DNA from: an uncultured Bacteroidales bacterium
Lineage (GTDB): Bacteria; Bacteroidota; Bacteroidia; Bacteroidales; Muribaculaceae
NCBI GenBank assembly: GCA_947175535.1
Contig: CAMWNF010000013.1
Span: 1 to 35,961, forward strand
Reading direction: 5' to 3'
Length of the DNA: 35,961 nt
Numbering within the stretch: position 1 is the first letter of the stretch; each line of letters opens with the position of its first letter. The translations under genes were made by a program, and so were the position numbers. Positions 1,179 to 27,263 of the stretch are shown here, piece after piece. The notes under the pieces are model-generated. The model did no database searches. It saw nothing but the letters and a program-made list of their open reading frames with translations, and was not told the origin of the DNA.

Positions 1179-1562
1179 AAAGCCGCGCCGGAGGGTCCGT
1201 CGCGAGTCGGCTTTGACCGACGCGAGGAAAGTCCGGGCAACACAGAGCACCATATTTCCTAACGGGAAGCTGTCGGCAACGGCAGAGTAATGTGACAGAA
1301 AACAACCGCCCCTGCGGGGGTAAGGGTGAAAAGGCGAGGTAAGAGCTCACCGGGCGCGATAGCGATATTGCGCGCCGCACATCTTATGGGTTGCAAGGTC
1401 AAGTATACCGGCATTCAAGGGTTGCTCGCCCATTGCCGGGGGGTAGACTGCTAAAGTCCGGTGGCGACATCGGAATCAGATAAATGACGGACGGAGCGAC
1501 GTAACTCCTGACGGAAAGTGCGTCCTCTACATAACCCGGCTTATACTCCAGCGAGGCTTTTT
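1179..1562 (+). ncRNA. rnpB: RNase P RNA, bacterial type A
   Basis: This is the catalytic RNA of RNase P, which removes 5' leaders from tRNA precursors. Diagnostic blocks are present in order: GAGGAAAGTCCGGGCA near 1222, GACAGAAAACAACCGCC near 1295, GGTAAGGGTGAAAAGG near 1319, AGAGCTCACCGG near 1341, GGGGGTAGACTGCTAAAG near 1439, and the 3' core CATAACCCGGCTTAT near 1530. The two ends pair (AAAGCC at 1179 with GGCTTT at 1555, plus adjacent CGGAG/CTCC) to give P1, and a T run follows directly as a likely terminator. An enlarged hairpin (GGACG ... CGTCC, about 1489-1525) replaces the short one found before the 3' core in E. coli. The ends are estimates to within a few bases. Confidence 0.95.
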
Positions 1563-21392: not shown

Positions 21393-24371
21393 TTATCTTA
21401 CAAGAACTTTCGTTGTCTTTGAGCCGCACTTGACGATATAGAGACCGGGAGCAACCGACTTTTCAAAGTCAGTGCGTAAGCCTGAGAATACGGGATGACC
21501 GACGAGGTCATAAGCAGTACAAGTAGCTGTGGATAATTCATCGCTATTATCAATAATTGTATCTTCCAAACCTGCAGGTATAGCATCGATGCGCAGACTA
21601 CCGTTGGCACTGACAGGTAATAACAGCGAATTGCCTTCAAGTTCTGCAGTAATGTTTCTTTCATTATAATACACGGCTTTAATCTTCGCATCGCCCTTTG
21701 TGTTTATAAATATACGGGTTCCTTTCGACGTCTTAGGCGAGCCGAGTGTTGCACCATTAAACAGACGGGCATAATTGCTGCCGTTATTGACATATGTTTC
21801 ACGGGCTGCTTTACGGGCTTTCACTCGCACAGACTGCTCTTCGTTTTCATCATCTTCTTCATACGCAGTTTCTGCTTCTGATAGCAAAGTCTCTTCTTCC
21901 ACGATTTTCTGATATTCTTCCTCATCGACCGCAGTCACTTCCACATCTTCGGGAATTGTTACATCAAGCGAGTTTACAAGATTGGCAAACATACCCCATT
22001 GAGGTGCGTTAAGATATGAACGGTAGGATTGGCGAGGAACTGCCAAACTACAACGGCGTGCACTCAACCCAGAGAATGTGCCTGTTCCGGCTGTAGGGGC
22101 TTCAATTGCTGCACAAGTAAGCGCAGAAATTGTTGCAGGTAATCCTTCACCATATTCAGGTTGTACAGGTTCTTTTATAGTTTTGAGTGTCACGGGCATA
22201 TTGATGCTGAGCAAACGAGAACAGTTAAATACTATGTCAAGGCTTATTCCTTCTGTTCCTTCGGGGATATTAATGCCTCTTAATTTAGTACCCGCAAACG
22301 CTTTATTCCCGATTTCAATCACATAGTCGGGTATTTCAATCATTTCAAGACCCGAATTCATAAATCCTCCATAACCAATTGTGAAAGGATTATTGGGCCA
22401 AAGAATTTGCTTTAGGCTTGTGCAGTTGGCAAAGTTTTCCTCATCTATTCTTTGTAGTTTTGACGCACTAAAATCCACAAATTCAAGAGAAGTACATCCC
22501 TTAAATATTGCCTTAAGAGTAGTTGGAGCTTCATTTCCATCTTGACTCAGATTTTCGCCGGCAATTATAGATTTTAGAGATATACAATTTTCAAAAGCAT
22601 TGGGGTATATGAGTCTAAGCGCATCTGGAAGTTTTGTTATCGATAACATACTACATCCAGAGAATGTGAGACTATTAATCTGCTCGAGATCATTTGGTAA
22701 TTTAGTTATTGATAGCATGTTGCAATTTTGAAATGCATATGAACCTATTTCTTTTACTGTTTCAGGAATTTCCTGTAAATCAATAAGATGACATCCTTTG
22801 AATGCACTATTACCGATTTTTTTAAGTCCACGAGGTAAAATAATCTCCGTAAGTAAATTTTTCCCTTCAAACGCGCCATCAGGTATCTCATCGTTAGTGA
22901 TTCTTGACAAGTCAATAGAAATCAGTGATACCATATTCTCACGAATCAGACGCCAGTCACTCTCTGCCAATGTACCGGTTACATGTAACTTGGTTACAAG
23001 CGAGGGCATTATGCCTGATTGTAAACGCACTTCTTCTGTAATAGGGACTCCATCGACATGAACAGAGACTTCGGCTTCTGATTCTTCTACGATATTAAAT
23101 ATTCTCCATGCAGGGTTACGTTCATATGCGGCTTTCGCTCCATCAGGTACAAGAAATGTGATATTATCAATCCGTTCTTGTGTAAGATTAAATGCGCCGC
23201 CGTTGACGGTAGGGGGTGTCTTTGACTTCATACGAAGAATCGATCCAAATGCCAATGATCCAACGTCGACACTTTTTACCTTACTTCCTATAGTCAGAAT
23301 ATCAGCGGCGACGGGATATTCTCCAGTTAATTTTGTAATCCCTTCTCCCATCACAATCTCGCCAATTCCTGATCCCCATAATGCTCGAGAACCAATGGTC
23401 GTTAATGAGTTAGGAAGTATAATTCTGCCGATGAAATTAGGAAAGTTTGTAAGAAATGCCTCTTCTCCAATTTCTTGTAGAGTAGAGGGAAAGTTAATTT
23501 CCGGAAAATTATGTCCATAAAAGGCATAGCCACCAATTTTTAAGAGACCTTCATTGAATATTATACTTTTTAAGTTGCCATTAAATGCATAGTCTCGAAT
23601 TTCTTTAAGGTTTTCAGGACAAACTATTTTTTGCATCTTAGCATACTGAAAGGCATGTTCTCCAATTACTTCAATCGTCTGGGGTAATATAATCTCTTCA
23701 ATAGCAGTATATTCAAACGCGTAATCTCCAACTTTGGTTACTTTTTTAGGGAGATATACAGTTTCCAGATTAGAGCACTTGCTACAAAGACCATTAGGAA
23801 TTTCTTTAAGTTCTGAGAATAGAACTACTCTCTTCAAGTTTTGCATCTCGGAAAAGGCAGATTCTCCGAGATTCGTGAGTCCTTCGGGGAGGGTGATTGA
23901 TGTTTGCGAGCCACATCCGGTAAATGCACTTATACCTATGGTTGCAACAGACGCAGGAATCTCATCAAAAGTCAAAGAACTACATCCATCAAAAGCATTA
24001 GAACCTATTTCAACAAGAGTTTCGGGAAATTGAATATAAAATAAATCTCTTTGTTGATAGAAGGAAGCATCACCTATTTTGATTAATGTATATTCGGTTT
24101 GTCCGTCCTTGGGATTTTCAGGTAAGATTAATTCTCCTGAAATAATATTTCCAGGCTGAATATCCCCCGAAAGACCGTCTTTCGGCACATAATTTTTTTT
24201 ATCCTTATCCTCGTCAACGACTGTATATCCTTCCTTTGTCATACAGGTTTTTGCATCCTCGTCAATGACAGTGTAAGTCACCGTCTGTCCCTCATAGAGG
24301 TAGGTAAAGTCACGGGCGAAAGTCGGAAGAGCAATCAGAACTCCCAACATTGAAAGTAAAAGTTTTTTCAT
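21393..24371 (-). CDS. Large exported BspA-like leucine-rich-repeat protein with a C-terminal sorting-like domain
   Basis: A 992-residue protein. Residues 1-19 are a signal peptide (cleavage after TFA). Residues about 95-370 and 450-760 hold LRR_5 (BspA type) repeats of about 23 residues with the core I.LP..L..IG..AF..C. Two neighbouring repeats are near copies (MLSITKLP at two places). A connecting region follows, then an acidic linker (about 810-840). The last 60 residues (YDLVGHPVF ... GLYIVKCG) resemble a type IX secretion type A sorting domain, which suggests surface attachment or secretion. BspA-like proteins bind host or microbial surfaces; the ligand here is unknown. The LRR-coding part (about 22300-24150) is visibly more AT-rich than the two ends, hinting at repeat exchange or import. 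Confidence 0.85.
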   Translation of the reverse strand: MKKLLLSMLGVLIALPTFARDFTYLYEGQTVTYTVIDEDAKTCMTKEGYTVVDEDKDKKNYVPKDGLSGDIQPGNIISGELILPENPKDGQTEYTLIKIGDASFYQQRDLFYIQFPETLVEIGSNAFDGCSSLTFDEIPASVATIGISAFTGCGSQTSITLPEGLTNLGESAFSEMQNLKRVVLFSELKEIPNGLCSKCSNLETVYLPKKVTKVGDYAFEYTAIEEIILPQTIEVIGEHAFQYAKMQKIVCPENLKEIRDYAFNGNLKSIIFNEGLLKIGGYAFYGHNFPEINFPSTLQEIGEEAFLTNFPNFIGRIILPNSLTTIGSRALWGSGIGEIVMGEGITKLTGEYPVAADILTIGSKVKSVDVGSLAFGSILRMKSKTPPTVNGGAFNLTQERIDNITFLVPDGAKAAYERNPAWRIFNIVEESEAEVSVHVDGVPITEEVRLQSGIMPSLVTKLHVTGTLAESDWRLIRENMVSLISIDLSRITNDEIPDGAFEGKNLLTEIILPRGLKKIGNSAFKGCHLIDLQEIPETVKEIGSYAFQNCNMLSITKLPNDLEQINSLTFSGCSMLSITKLPDALRLIYPNAFENCISLKSIIAGENLSQDGNEAPTTLKAIFKGCTSLEFVDFSASKLQRIDEENFANCTSLKQILWPNNPFTIGYGGFMNSGLEMIEIPDYVIEIGNKAFAGTKLRGINIPEGTEGISLDIVFNCSRLLSINMPVTLKTIKEPVQPEYGEGLPATISALTCAAIEAPTAGTGTFSGLSARRCSLAVPRQSYRSYLNAPQWGMFANLVNSLDVTIPEDVEVTAVDEEEYQKIVEEETLLSEAETAYEEDDENEEQSVRVKARKAARETYVNNGSNYARLFNGATLGSPKTSKGTRIFINTKGDAKIKAVYYNERNITAELEGNSLLLPVSANGSLRIDAIPAGLEDTIIDNSDELSTATCTAYDLVGHPVFSGLRTDFEKSVAPGLYIVKCGSKTTKVLVR

Positions 24372-24460
24372 TCTCGTTTTGATTTTGAAGTTATTATTTA
24401 ATAATTAGGTGTTTTTAGCAATATCCATTTTTTGCCTCGTATTACAATTCTTATAGCTAT
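24372..24460. other. AT-rich leader of the LRR gene
   Basis: This is the stretch directly before the LRR gene's ATG on the minus strand. I see no TAnnTTTG element in it, so the LRR gene's promoter is not located. It may be transcribed from the leftward promoter at 25083-25113 if the terminator at 24727-24772 is leaky. Confidence 0.3.
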
Positions 24461-24685
24461 TCATATGACTTGCAATCGGGACATCAACAGGTAAAAAATA
24501 TTATGAACTCCTGCGATGCAGTCAACGATAGATTTTATTTCACTTAGGTGTTCTGGAAAGCAGTTTCTTTCAAATGCTTTATGTTCTCTTTCAAGAGTCG
24601 CAACAGAATCACAGTCACAACAAGATGTCTTGATGCAACATAACGGAAACTTGCCATTGATACAATCGCAGTCCTTGCTTGCCAT
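24461..24685 (-). CDS. Cys-rich small protein, unknown
   Basis: A 74-residue reading frame from ATG 24685 to TGA 24461. Nine cysteines are present, seven within the first 25 residues (DCDC ... CC ... CCDCD), followed by a charged, probably helical stretch (ATLEREHKAFERN) and a hydrophobic C-terminus. The codons look plausible for a real gene, and TAATAAAAACA precedes the ATG, typical of Bacteroidales leaders. The frame stays open further upstream, but those residues come from the terminator and structured RNA and look non-coding. The cysteine pattern suggests metal binding. It starts about 45 nt after the terminator of the candidate RNA and lies about 90 nt before the LRR gene. I recognise no family. 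Confidence 0.4.
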   Translation of the reverse strand: MASKDCDCINGKFPLCCIKTSCCDCDSVATLEREHKAFERNCFPEHLSEIKSIVDCIAGVHNIFYLLMSRLQVI

Positions 24686-24726
24686 TGTTTTTATTACAGC
24701 CGCCGGGCTTCCACATTGGCATTTAA

Positions 24727-24772
24727 TAATAAAAAGAAAAGCGCGAAGCCGTACTGATGTCCGTTCACGCTT
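24727..24772 (-). terminator. Intrinsic terminator of the candidate structured RNA
   Basis: On the minus strand AAGCGTGAA pairs with TTCGCGCTT (9 bp with one G-U pair) across a 16-nt loop and is followed by TTTCTTTTTATT. Its left arm partly overlaps GAACGGAC, which can instead pair with GTCCGTTC upstream, so a competing fold is possible. Confidence 0.75.
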
Positions 24773-25076
24773 GTAGAGGCTCTGGAACTGCCCTGTTGAG
24801 TAGAACGGACAACGCAGAGACCTCACGCGAGATATGATATATGCCATAAGTGGCGATGTTTAACGCATCGACTCCCATACAGCAGATTATGCATATCCAC
24901 ATTAGGCGTCTACCGCTGTCTCATCCTTGACTCAACATGAAATTTTCCAGATTCCTACAAGCCAAGAAAGAGCGTCGAGTATACGCTTTTCATTATGTAT
25001 GTTTCGGAGGCAAAATAACACCTCCCACATTCCCACCCCGCATAAACCCATGACCAGGCCTCTGCGAAATGGTCTG
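24735..25076 (-). ncRNA. Candidate structured non-coding RNA or leader, about 340 nt, family not recognised
   Basis: The unit is bounded by an exact consensus promoter (25083-25113) and an intrinsic terminator (24727-24772). On the minus strand CGCAGAGGCC (25066-25057) near the 5' end can pair with GGTCTCTGCG (24822-24813) about 240 nt later: ten base pairs, one of them G-U. Inside it are hairpins GGAGG/CCTCC (25006-25025), GAAAAGCGT/ACGCTCTTTC (24966-24991) and CGATG/CATCG (24854-24870). After the closing helix, GTCCGTTC (24803-24810) can pair with GAACGGAC (24759-24766) just before the terminator. The only ATG-started frame of note is 39 codons near the 5' end. It is not RNase P RNA (that is at 1179), and it lacks the tmRNA ends and tag and the cobalamin-riboswitch core. 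It could be a trans-acting RNA or a riboswitch-like leader of the Cys-rich ORF. Confidence 0.55.
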
Positions 25077-25082
25077 TAACGG

Positions 25083-25113
25083 CAAAGGTAATAAAAAAGG
25101 ATAGAAGAACAAA
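25083..25113 (-). promoter_or_regulatory. Consensus Bacteroidetes promoter for the candidate RNA
   Basis: The minus strand reads TTTG (25110-25113), 19 bp, then TACCTTTG (25083-25090): an exact match to TTTG-N19-TAnnTTTG. Transcription would start near 25076 and run left, away from recQ. No large gene begins within 390 bp. Confidence 0.78.
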
Positions 25114-25126
25114 ACGTAATCCAAAG

Positions 25127-25159
25127 AAGGTGTGTCAAAATTTGCTTTTGGCACACCTT
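25127..25159 (-). terminator. Strong hairpin, likely terminator or repeat element
   Basis: AAGGTGTGTCAAAA and TTTTGGCACACCTT form a 14-bp stem (one wobble) around a 5-nt loop. There is no long T run outside the stem on either strand. It lies 200 nt past the recQ stop codon and just upstream of the leftward RNA promoter, so it could insulate the two. Confidence 0.5.
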
Positions 25160-25361
25160 CTCCTACGTTTCAACTATTTATTTATGAGAGCCTCAGATTC
25201 GGGTTTCACAATCAGAATAAGAGGACGAGGGATGTTAATGATGCGTATCTCTTTCTTTTTACGCTACGATAATATAACGTTTCAGCAGCCTGAAATCCGC
25301 ATTACAAGCCGCTAAAAGAGATTAATTAATGTAAATATGCCGGAGAAATCTGCGCAAAAGG
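25160..25361. other. Gap after recQ with short unsupported reading frames
   Basis: The minus strand holds a 29-codon frame without a start codon (25174-25263, RKKKEIRIINIPRPLILIV...) that ends next to the hairpin at 25127-25159. The plus strand holds a 43-codon ATG frame (25184-25315). Both look somewhat protein-like, but neither can be called a gene. I see no recQ terminator directly after its stop codon. Confidence 0.3.
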
Positions 25362-27263
25362 TCAACAGATGTGTAAAACACAGTCTCCCACGATACGCAA
25401 TTTACCCTCGTCCGCCAACTGCCGCAGGATTTCAGTCACAATCTTACGACGTGTCGAATATGCCGACAGTATGCTTTCTATTTTCATTTCGCCCGCATCT
25501 GCAACTAACCGCATGATATTTTCGATAAGCTGCAGACGCTGCTCTTCGGAAGGTTCGCGACGAAGCCTGTCACGACAGACATCACAAATTCCACATTCGG
25601 CAGCATCGGTTTCACCGAAGTATTCAAGCATAATCTGTGAACGGCAACAATCATCGCTGAACGCAAAACGCCGGATGGCTTCAAGACGCTTTTCGAAACG
25701 CGCCCGCTGCTCCTCATAGACAGTCCGAGGTATTACGAGATAGCGCGGCAATTCACGTGAAGTCGGATAGTAGACGTAAGGTGTGAGACGACGCGGAATG
25801 TAATGAATCACATGCATACGCGACAACGTCACAAGCGCAGATGTCACGGCAAGTTCTGTCACACCGAGAGACAGGGCTATACGCGATTCACTGATTTGCA
25901 CATAATCGGCGAACAACCCAGGATAGATGCGCAATATTCCTTGAAACACAGACTCCGTAGCATCATCGAGAGCAAGGCTATAGAACTCGGATTTATCCAC
26001 GAGAATCATAATGCGCGACATTGTCAGGGACTCATCGGAATACTCTATATAGCCCGAACGGGTTAATATTGACAACGCACTGCGCGTCACAGCAGGCTGA
26101 AGTTTGAAAACCGAACAGAAACGGTTGAAGTCACATTCATAAACCTTATTATACCCCCCGCCGACTATTATGTCAAGGAAATTTCCAAGAAGTTCGTAGA
26201 CACGTAATATATACTCCTTCGGCGGATAGGCTTCGCCGAGCCTTCGTGTCAGCAGTGCTTTGTCAGATTTCGAGACCAGAAGCACGGCATAGGACGGTAG
26301 CCCGTCACGCCCTGCGCGACCTGCCTCCTGATAATATTCTTCGAGTGAAGACGGAAGGTCATAATGCACCACAACTCGTACGTCAGGCTTGTCGATACCC
26401 ATACCGAAAGCATTTGTGGCGACTATAACACGTATCGTTCCATTCTTCCATTTATCCTGACGGTCTGCCTTTTCTTCCGGCGACAATCCTGCATGATAAT
26501 ATTCGGCAGAAATACCTTCAGCCCGAATGGCGGCAGCCAATTCGCGACTGCGGCGGCGCGACCTGACGTAGACGATTGATGAGCCGCATGTGTTTGCAAG
26601 CACTTTCAGCAACCTGCCCTCTTTATGTTCGTCGCGTCGGACGATGTAACTGATATTGTCGCGTGCGAAGCTTTTTGAAAAAATCTGCGGAGACTTCATC
26701 GCGAGTTTATCGGCGATGTCAGCAACTACTTCGGGAGTCGCAGAAGCAGTCAGAGCAAGCATTGGAGCCTCAGGGAAAAGCAAACGCAATTCGCTGATGG
26801 CAAGATAAGACGGACGGAAATCATAGCCCCATTGAGAAATACAATGAGCTTCATCGACCACTATCGCCGACACGCGCCACTGTCGCATTTCGTCAATAAA
26901 GGTTTTCTGTTTCAGGCGTTCGGGAGATATATAAGCCAATTTAACCTTATCGAGACGGCAACGGTCAAGAGCGAGCTTTGTCTCGCGGCGTGTCAGTCCG
27001 GAATGAAAATAAACGGCACGAATGCCGCGTTGAAAAAGGTTGTCGACCTGGTCTTTCATCAGAGAGATAAGCGGTGAGACGACAATTGTCAGACCTTCGA
27101 AAATCAACGCGGGAACCTGAAACGTTATCGACTTGCCACCACCCGTGGGAAGCAATCCGATAGTATCTTTACCCGACAACAACGACTGAATAATATCTTC
27201 CTGAAGGGGACGAAAAGAATCGTAACCCCAATAGCGCCGCAATATGTCGACGGGCGTGGTCAT
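25362..27263 (-). CDS. recQ: RecQ-family ATP-dependent DNA helicase
   Basis: A 633-residue 3'-5' DNA helicase for recombination and fork repair. Walker A is LLPTGGGKS (Lys44) and Walker B is DEAH (137-140), followed by CISQWGYDFRPSY, the RecQ aromatic-rich loop. The second helicase domain has YYHAGLSPEEKADRQ (about 255) and QEAGRAGRDG (about 317). A zinc-binding region with DCCRSQIMLEYFGE and CGICDVC lies near 535-565. A short winged-helix-like end follows, and no HRDC domain is evident, making it similar to the shorter RecQ forms of Bacteroidetes. It starts 15 nt after the recJ stop codon, so recJ-recQ form an operon; their products cooperate in RecF-pathway end processing in other bacteria. 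Confidence 0.92.
   Translation of the reverse strand: MTTPVDILRRYWGYDSFRPLQEDIIQSLLSGKDTIGLLPTGGGKSITFQVPALIFEGLTIVVSPLISLMKDQVDNLFQRGIRAVYFHSGLTRRETKLALDRCRLDKVKLAYISPERLKQKTFIDEMRQWRVSAIVVDEAHCISQWGYDFRPSYLAISELRLLFPEAPMLALTASATPEVVADIADKLAMKSPQIFSKSFARDNISYIVRRDEHKEGRLLKVLANTCGSSIVYVRSRRRSRELAAAIRAEGISAEYYHAGLSPEEKADRQDKWKNGTIRVIVATNAFGMGIDKPDVRVVVHYDLPSSLEEYYQEAGRAGRDGLPSYAVLLVSKSDKALLTRRLGEAYPPKEYILRVYELLGNFLDIIVGGGYNKVYECDFNRFCSVFKLQPAVTRSALSILTRSGYIEYSDESLTMSRIMILVDKSEFYSLALDDATESVFQGILRIYPGLFADYVQISESRIALSLGVTELAVTSALVTLSRMHVIHYIPRRLTPYVYYPTSRELPRYLVIPRTVYEEQRARFEKRLEAIRRFAFSDDCCRSQIMLEYFGETDAAECGICDVCRDRLRREPSEEQRLQLIENIMRLVADAGEMKIESILSAYSTRRKIVTEILRQLADEGKLRIVGDCVLHIC

Follow-up and report, generated by a model that had tools for sequence, protein, structure and literature searches.

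The stretch of DNA analysed here, referred to as the window, comprises 35,961 nucleotides of contig CAMWNF010000013.1 from an uncultured bacterium of the Muribaculaceae. On its minus strand, from position 25113 to approximately 24699, lies a structured, putative leader RNA of about 400 nt. It is flanked by recQ on the upstream side and is followed by genes for a Cys-rich protein and a BspA-type leucine-rich repeat (LRR) protein (Table 1). A longer open reading frame spanning 24461-24847 has no match in Pfam. A preliminary description of the locus, made from the sequence alone, had noted an exact TTTG-N19 promoter. The promoter is present as described, and its motif recurs: 226 of 243 copies of the RNA carry TANNTTTG no more than 200 nt above hairpin H2, versus 24.7 after mononucleotide shuffling, and 172 of those 226 copies have a TTG 17-25 nt before it. 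We take this to be the Bacteroidales consensus promoter. Just above it, a near-perfect inverted repeat (25112-25170; AAGGTGTG...CACACCTT) probably serves as the terminator of recQ; it is matched, at sub-threshold scores, by two microRNA models of Rfam.

Table 1. Features of the window copy and its neighbours (window coordinates; a colon separates the two strands of a helix)
Feature	Position	Strand	Remarks
recQ	25362-27263		flank upstream of leader
Promoter	25083..25113	-	TTTG (25113-25110), N19, TACCTTTG (25090-25083); read from sequence
Putative leader RNA	24686..25076	-	expected start to base before Cys-rich ORF; 5' end predicted from promoter
5' element	25052..25074	-	GACC (25074-25071) : GGTC (25055-25052); loop holds 5' strand of helix L; by eye in window and copies
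Helix L	25057..25066 (5' strand), 24822-24813 (3' strand)	-	joins 5' end to base of 3' domain
Copy-specific hairpin	25006..25025	-	GGAGG...CCTCC; sequence and fold
Hairpin H2	24972..24986 (24986-24983 : 24975-24972)	-	96.3% of cells paired; 1/4 pairs changed on both sides
Stem P3	24924..24968 (24968-24963 : 24929-24924)	-	91.5% of cells paired; 4/6 pairs changed on both sides
K3a	24955..24962, partner K3b 24776-24769	-	hypervariable; 98.1% paired; 8/8 pairs with double changes
Hairpin D stem	24954-24952 : 24941-24939	-	just 69.5% paired
K1a (hairpin D loop)	24945..24951, partner K1b 24787-24781	-	98.2% paired; 5/7 pairs with double changes
K2a	24930..24936, partner K2b 24801-24795	-	hypervariable; 93.6% paired; 7/7 pairs with double changes
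Apical arm	24831..24897 (base 24897-24892 : 24836-24831)	-	base conserved, 86.8% of cells paired; upper stem copy-specific
3' domain, closed by helix T	24741..24828 (T 24828-24823 : 24746-24741)	-	T 92.9% paired; 5/6 pairs with double changes
Stem Q	24758..24811 (24811-24803 : 24766-24758)	-	loop is strand 2: K2b, stem G around K1b, K3b
Stem G	24792-24790 : 24780-24778	-	99.2% paired
U-run after helix T	24731..24740	-	one C inside; ~340 nt below expected start
Hairpin below U-run	24699..24720 (24720-24718 : 24701-24699)	-	loop 24711-24706 pairs with 24750-24745 (S2)
Cys-rich protein	24461..24685	-	first downstream gene; ~74 aa
BspA-type LRR protein	21393..24371	-	second downstream gene; 992 aa; LRR_5 E 3.2e-104

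The strand from 25081 to 24727 folds with a predicted energy of -137.1 kcal/mol, compared to -101.9 ± 5.1 kcal/mol for 100 shuffled sequences (z = -6.9), none of which folded as well. In this computed fold the 5' element is paired differently from the arrangement given in Table 1. Both helices that had been described from the sequence are present: the 10-bp long-range pairing is helix L, and the helix 24810-24803 : 24766-24759 extends to 9 bp as stem Q. Three long-range helices had been missed. The loop of stem P3 (strand 1) is made up of K3a, hairpin D with K1a, and K2a, and helices K3, K1 and K2 connect it to the loop of stem Q (strand 2), their arms being about 130-180 nt apart on one strand. 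On paper, this would give two four-way junctions that are linked through K2 and K3, and a kissing contact between the D and G loops. The tip of the apical arm is a GNRA-like loop in many copies, as judged by eye.

The 3' end departs in part from the intrinsic terminator that had been proposed. The U-run is found at the expected distance and follows directly on a G+C-rich stem, helix T, as in an intrinsic terminator; however, that helix closes the whole 3' domain, a structure of about 80 nt, and is not a compact local hairpin. A simple terminator scan of the window did not list helix T and its U-run. At the end of helix T, 234 of 256 copies have at least six T in a 9-nt window. The hairpin below the U-run had also been missed. 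Its loop pairs (S2) with a segment just inside helix T that has about 2 nt in common with T; S2 covaries, as described below, and might provide an alternative pairing of the terminator arm, although from a position below the U-run.

A search of the whole window against Rfam 15 at the gathering score identified only RNase P, elsewhere in the window (class A RNA gene, 1184-1559, plus strand, 236.9 bits). For positions 24400-25400, five sub-threshold matches were obtained at E ≤ 5, none at the family cut-off, and ten further loci gave no match at the gathering threshold. Thus no Rfam family, including the Bacteroidales-1 motif named in the preliminary description, matches the element, and an identity as a known RNase P RNA or riboswitch was rejected. 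ARAGORN found no tmRNA or tRNA in the window. A frame that begins with MKSVY occurs in several copies, but in others the frame shifts at this point and the sequence pairs as H2 (by eye), which argues against a coding RNA. A phage or plasmid element was likewise rejected, since a plasmid and phage search gave no match and two exact patterns were each found in one viral contig. No description of the RNA was found in the literature searched; the supplementary candidate tables of one study, which may list thousands of unnamed RNA candidates, were outside that search, and a fragment may be numbered there (PMC8040213). As far as these searches extend, the proposal of an undescribed structured RNA is supported by the fold, the lack of an Rfam match, the covariation and the literature. 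What would make it categorically new are the hypervariable paired words and the fold; the putative leader role is itself of a known kind.

When the window's genome and 60 relatives were searched at the DNA level, 29 of the 61 genomes gave matches, all of them in the window's genus, with three matches in this genome. A covariance model, R1, was made from the 3' domain aligned from 47 of 51 copies, four partial or doubtful copies being omitted. R1 matched 177 of 198 sampled genomes of the window's family (E ≤ 0.01), which answers the question of conservation in related genomes in the affirmative. It matched 36 of 295 genomes in an order-wide sample, four of the 36 belonging to the window's own family, and in a phylum-wide sample (E ≤ 0.001) one genome of 296, the window's own, with none among the other 295. 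These large scans used stricter filters and lose weak matches. The window's genome has 13-14 matches and others have up to 17, counts which are approximate since a few represent weak hits on the opposite strand of another match; in the case of genome G174, one of 18 matches was removed on this ground to leave 17. The 3' domain of locus L074 (1011-1116, minus strand), for example, weakly matches its own reverse strand (26.9 bits), and similar matches occur in many loci, as for a nearly self-complementary element.

A pattern scan of named genomes identified at least 117 stretches. Among the 80 listed, the sources are chiefly metagenome-assembled genomes (MAGs) of Muribaculaceae, uncultured Porphyromonadaceae, Bacteroidales and Bacteroides sp., with at least one isolate; most genomes surveyed are metagenome assemblies. 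A contig of the Muribaculaceae isolate Isolate-104 (HZI) carries the copy at locus L153. The RNA was also found in MAGs with Firmicutes titles (L114, L132, L137 (Lachnospiraceae) and L156 (Clostridium sp.)), and these titles look wrong for a Bacteroidales RNA. Copies can cluster, as at loci L044 and L037: contig C17 of genome G018 has three matches, two of them short, within 25 kb, and contig C56 of genome G008 has two full copies within 7 kb.

In 180 of the 184 aligned copies, pairing was assessed by comparing the duplex of each segment with its own partner to those with partners taken at random from other copies. The duplex energies were -9.48 kcal/mol (self) versus -2.08 kcal/mol (non-self) for K2, -9.56 versus -2.08 for K3 and -10.16 versus -4.38 for K1, with the own partner the better one in 97%, 97% and 83%, respectively. 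Stem Q gave -13.79 versus -11.93 kcal/mol (64%) and S2 gave -10.64 versus -8.29 kcal/mol (74%). In a larger set of 250 copies S2 gave -7.76 versus -6.24 kcal/mol (70%), rising to 78% in the 129 copies with rarer S2 words. For P3, T and H2 the own partner was better in 55%, 49% and 34%, and five control pairings gave 45-50%; these three helices are nearly constant, so the test says little about them. Helix L, compared in 214 copies (-15.20 versus -13.38 kcal/mol; 58%), is conserved with modest covariation.

A second assessment used a MAFFT alignment of 40 copies, consisting of the window copy and 39 others picked randomly among those 222 of the 256 copies whose length and score satisfied a filter. 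The structure was taken from the window row, and the alignment was fitted by sequence rather than by hand. In this alignment 86.4% of cells pair versus 74.2% in shuffles, 39 of 59 pairs are changed on both sides versus 25.2, and the covariation score is 0.382 versus 0.153, with slid versions reaching at most 0.107. Further pair types are in slight excess (94 versus 86.8; 13 of 500 shuffles reach 94). Stem Q is just 49.1% paired here because its 3' strand is misregistered in many rows. The covariation that the preliminary description had asked for is thus present, and in the aligned sequences K1-K3 covary strongly, over a long range, between two loops.

While K1 is represented by 32 words in 256 non-redundant copies, K3 and K2 have 147 and 120, respectively. 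K3 pairs at all eight positions (G-U allowed) in 217 of 243 equal-length copies, and the duplex energy is above -6 kcal/mol in 11 of 256 copies for K3 and in 22 of 256 for K2. Some K2 words recur (TCTCAGT in 18 copies, TTGGAGT in 16), which makes for an uneven vocabulary. The relatedness of two copies has little influence on how far their words differ; in 108 pairs with at least 95% core identity, the modal K3 difference is still 4 of 8. Twenty close pairs, drawn from 29 copies and thus not independent, were at least 85% identical in both the apical arm and the core; the filter also required a paired K3 in both copies, which excluded no pair. In 16 of the 20, each arm of K3 carries at least two differences and the pairing is preserved; across all 20 pairs the mean K3a difference is 3.25 of 8. 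K2 has changed with pairing kept in 14, both K2 and K3 in 12 and neither in two. To our knowledge, other structured RNAs do not show paired words that change on both arms of an otherwise unchanging locus.

The contrast with the surrounding sequence is strongest for two pairs. Loci L239 and L293, from two genomes of one genus, form one of the 16 close pairs with a changed K3 and are identical at 33 of 33 four-fold sites of the downstream gene and throughout the apical arm. Their core differences are mostly at K3a, K2a, K2b and K3b; a small number lie next to P3 and stem G. K3 has changed at three of eight positions per arm and pairs fully in both; K2 has changed too, and the L293 duplex as extracted is weak (-2.8 kcal/mol). 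Loci L095 and L138 are identical at 36 of 36 four-fold sites, and K3, K2, K1 and the apical arm have all changed. Among the 60 pairs listed of 252, four-fold identity reaches 0.75 or more in five close orthologous pairs; the words have changed in four of these and are retained in one, L231-L286. Within the window's genome, L067 and L068 differ at five of eight K3 positions on both arms and precede unrelated genes. Assembly chimaeras would break the pairing of the arms, and K3 pairs at five or fewer of eight positions in just 5 of 243 copies. A swap of the interior does not account for the L239-L293 pair with its identical apical arm.

The genes that follow the RNA were surveyed with a simple, crude gene picker in 188 of 200 matches, kept for having distinct 3' domains. 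A same-strand gene comes next in 173 of the 188 and an opposite-strand gene in six, while in nine the available sequence contains no next gene. The same-strand gene starts 41-73 nt after the U-run or match end in 120 of the 173, nearer in 13 and farther in 40. The same-strand position and the spacing make a cis-acting leader the most likely role; the start-codon spacing, promoter and U-run together point to a leader with a built-in terminator. The suggestion that the RNA leads the Cys-rich ORF and LRR gene is therefore borne out by the anatomy in relatives.

The downstream genes are mostly unrelated, with LRR/BspA proteins the commonest. A separate set consisted of the 173 same-strand first genes that encode 60 aa or more; 107 of their products look exported by a crude signal-peptide rule applied without a background. 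Pfam analysis of 147 of these first genes identified LRR_5 in 16, the rest being scattered, and of 112 of 126 second genes LRR_5 in 24 and Big_2 in eight. The NCBIfam matches of the 147 are mainly LRR adhesin-like models (14 members; the sole match detailed scores far below the cut-off) and four T9SS sorting domains. A position before a same-strand gene is shared with metabolite riboswitches; the shared pathway expected of one was not found among these scattered Pfam families, so a ligand is not suggested. Defence cargo was also considered. The PADLOC families among the 25 of 54 and 25 of 79 listed are scattered (methylases, PDC-S26 with three members, an HKD+Snf2 protein and a few others) and reveal no general link.

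From these observations, we consider it somewhat better than an even chance that the RNA is a cis-acting 5' leader of about 400 nt, with docking-controlled termination or read-through and a locus-specific lock made of words. Transcription would start near 25076. The RNA would fold, and the P3 loop would dock on the Q loop through K3, K1 and K2. Docking would set the outcome: either helix T forms at the U-run and the transcript stops, or RNA polymerase reads on. In the read-through RNA, the hairpin below the U-run would make its S2 pairing and hold the structure open beside the start codon. The copy-specific words would act as a lock that accepts just strand 2 from the same transcript, or from a different transcript of that locus such as a terminated leader, and every locus would be regulated separately as a result. 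Such a leader is probably an attenuator. The choice between termination and read-through that had been raised from the sequence is plausible given the frequency of the U-run and the paired element below it; against it, this element cannot act before termination, and the order of events is uncertain. The lock predicts that copies within a genome avoid each other's words. Of 536 within-genome pairs, eight share K2 versus 7.4 when shuffled and three share K3 versus 4.7; word distances are alike within and between genomes, with no within-genome orthogonality. This absence of avoidance, the orthologous pair that kept its words and the copies with a weak K2 all count against this reading.

The stable non-coding RNA that had been offered as the other option would end at the U-run and act in trans, its words pairing with target RNAs. 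While its own promoter motif and U-run, the strong fold and the turnover of words would suit such a molecule, the spacing to a same-strand gene fits a leader, and the conserved pairing crosses the U-run to near the start codon, which makes a stand-alone RNA less likely. The K2b...K3b pattern of the window copy is found once elsewhere in the genome, lacks the K1 word and looks like chance (one copy, exact pattern). We regard action in trans as unlikely. A further reading bears on the words alone and does not conflict with a leader: K2 and K3 would be free spacers that drift neutrally by compensatory change, without any special process. Covariation is the normal signature of a helix, words have often changed at some positions rather than being wholly exchanged, sharing within genomes is as expected by chance, and one close orthologous pair of five retains its words. 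However, turnover exceeds the yardsticks, as in the two pairs with identical four-fold sites and in the close pairs with K3 changed on both arms. G-U pairs make up 2.3% of K3 and 3.0% of K2 versus 14.3% of stem Q and 5.8% of helix T, suggesting that the easy G-U paths are little used. The corresponding share in K1 (0.1%) is biased low by a register picked for Watson-Crick pairs, and that of H2 rests on 55 copies and is unreliable. Neutral drift of this kind is thus improbable.

That both arms change together, almost purely in Watson-Crick pairs, and that the downstream genes look like interchangeable cargo, could also indicate a guide or DNA-recombination element, either bridge-RNA-like, with words matching both strands of a DNA target, or attC-like, folding as single-stranded DNA. 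Among the Pfam families listed (25 of 55 for first genes, 25 of 74 for second genes) there is no transposase or recombinase, nor a nuclease of a bridge-RNA or omega-RNA system, the plasmid and phage searches point the same way, and the promoter and start-codon spacing would be left unexplained; this reading is very unlikely. Most improbable is a ribozyme or a leader processed by RNase, with the double docking creating the site of catalysis or cleavage. The size, invariant stretches and pseudoknotted fold do resemble large catalytic RNAs in general, but no Rfam ribozyme matches the element and no known catalytic motif was evident by eye.

Within the favoured reading of a cis-acting leader, the words resemble an address, in that many sequences would serve if the partner matches, and they turn over fast. 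It is possible, though doubtful, that K2 and K3 are an actively diversified address code. Some process, or selection, would then rewrite the two distant arms at a rate above that of synonymous sites, leaving each leader able to recognise only its own kind. Renewal might possibly occur by DNA-level copying of one arm from the other. If true, self and non-self would be encoded in RNA-RNA complementarity. The words may have diversified through selection for diversity, through copying of inverted repeats from one arm to the other, through exchange among the copies or through fast neutral drift.

Several known systems share individual features with the RNA. In the CopA/CopT antisense kissing loops, fast-changing loop words stay complementary and set specificity; one DNA segment encodes both partners on opposite strands, and pairing is kept automatically. 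Complementarity is kept here as well, but between distant arms on one strand. T-box leaders are multi-copy and hold a copy-specific word in a conserved scaffold, where the word reads a tRNA; the words here are complementary to each other, and there is no T-box match. Integron attC sites, which are substrates as single-stranded DNA, combine a conserved fold and variable paired sequence with changing cargo, all three of which have counterparts here, whereas the promoter, invariant nucleotides and start-codon spacing point to an RNA. The HMP-PP (thiS) riboswitch is a terminator-embedded aptamer, with constructs of 52-66 nt and one thiamin pathway (PMC6478431). Like the present RNA, it has a structured domain inside a stem that abuts the U-run, and its competing form may hold a pseudoknot; in contrast, the putative leader here is far longer, precedes unrelated genes, and has both hypervariable words and a pairing that lies below the U-run. 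The Bacteroidetes motifs of PMC2864571, Bacteroidales-1 (RF01693) among them, are also structured RNAs of Bacteroidales, but none matches the window region at E ≤ 5.

The RNA adds to the Muribaculaceae a large, widespread structured family for which no Rfam entry was found. The putative leader probably controls genes for LRR/BspA proteins and other accessory genes. As Muribaculaceae are common gut bacteria, such control would bear on how commensals choose their display proteins. The copies at L076 and L179 lie before operons with an apparent tubulin-like protein, and Pfam Tubulin_2 matches one second gene.
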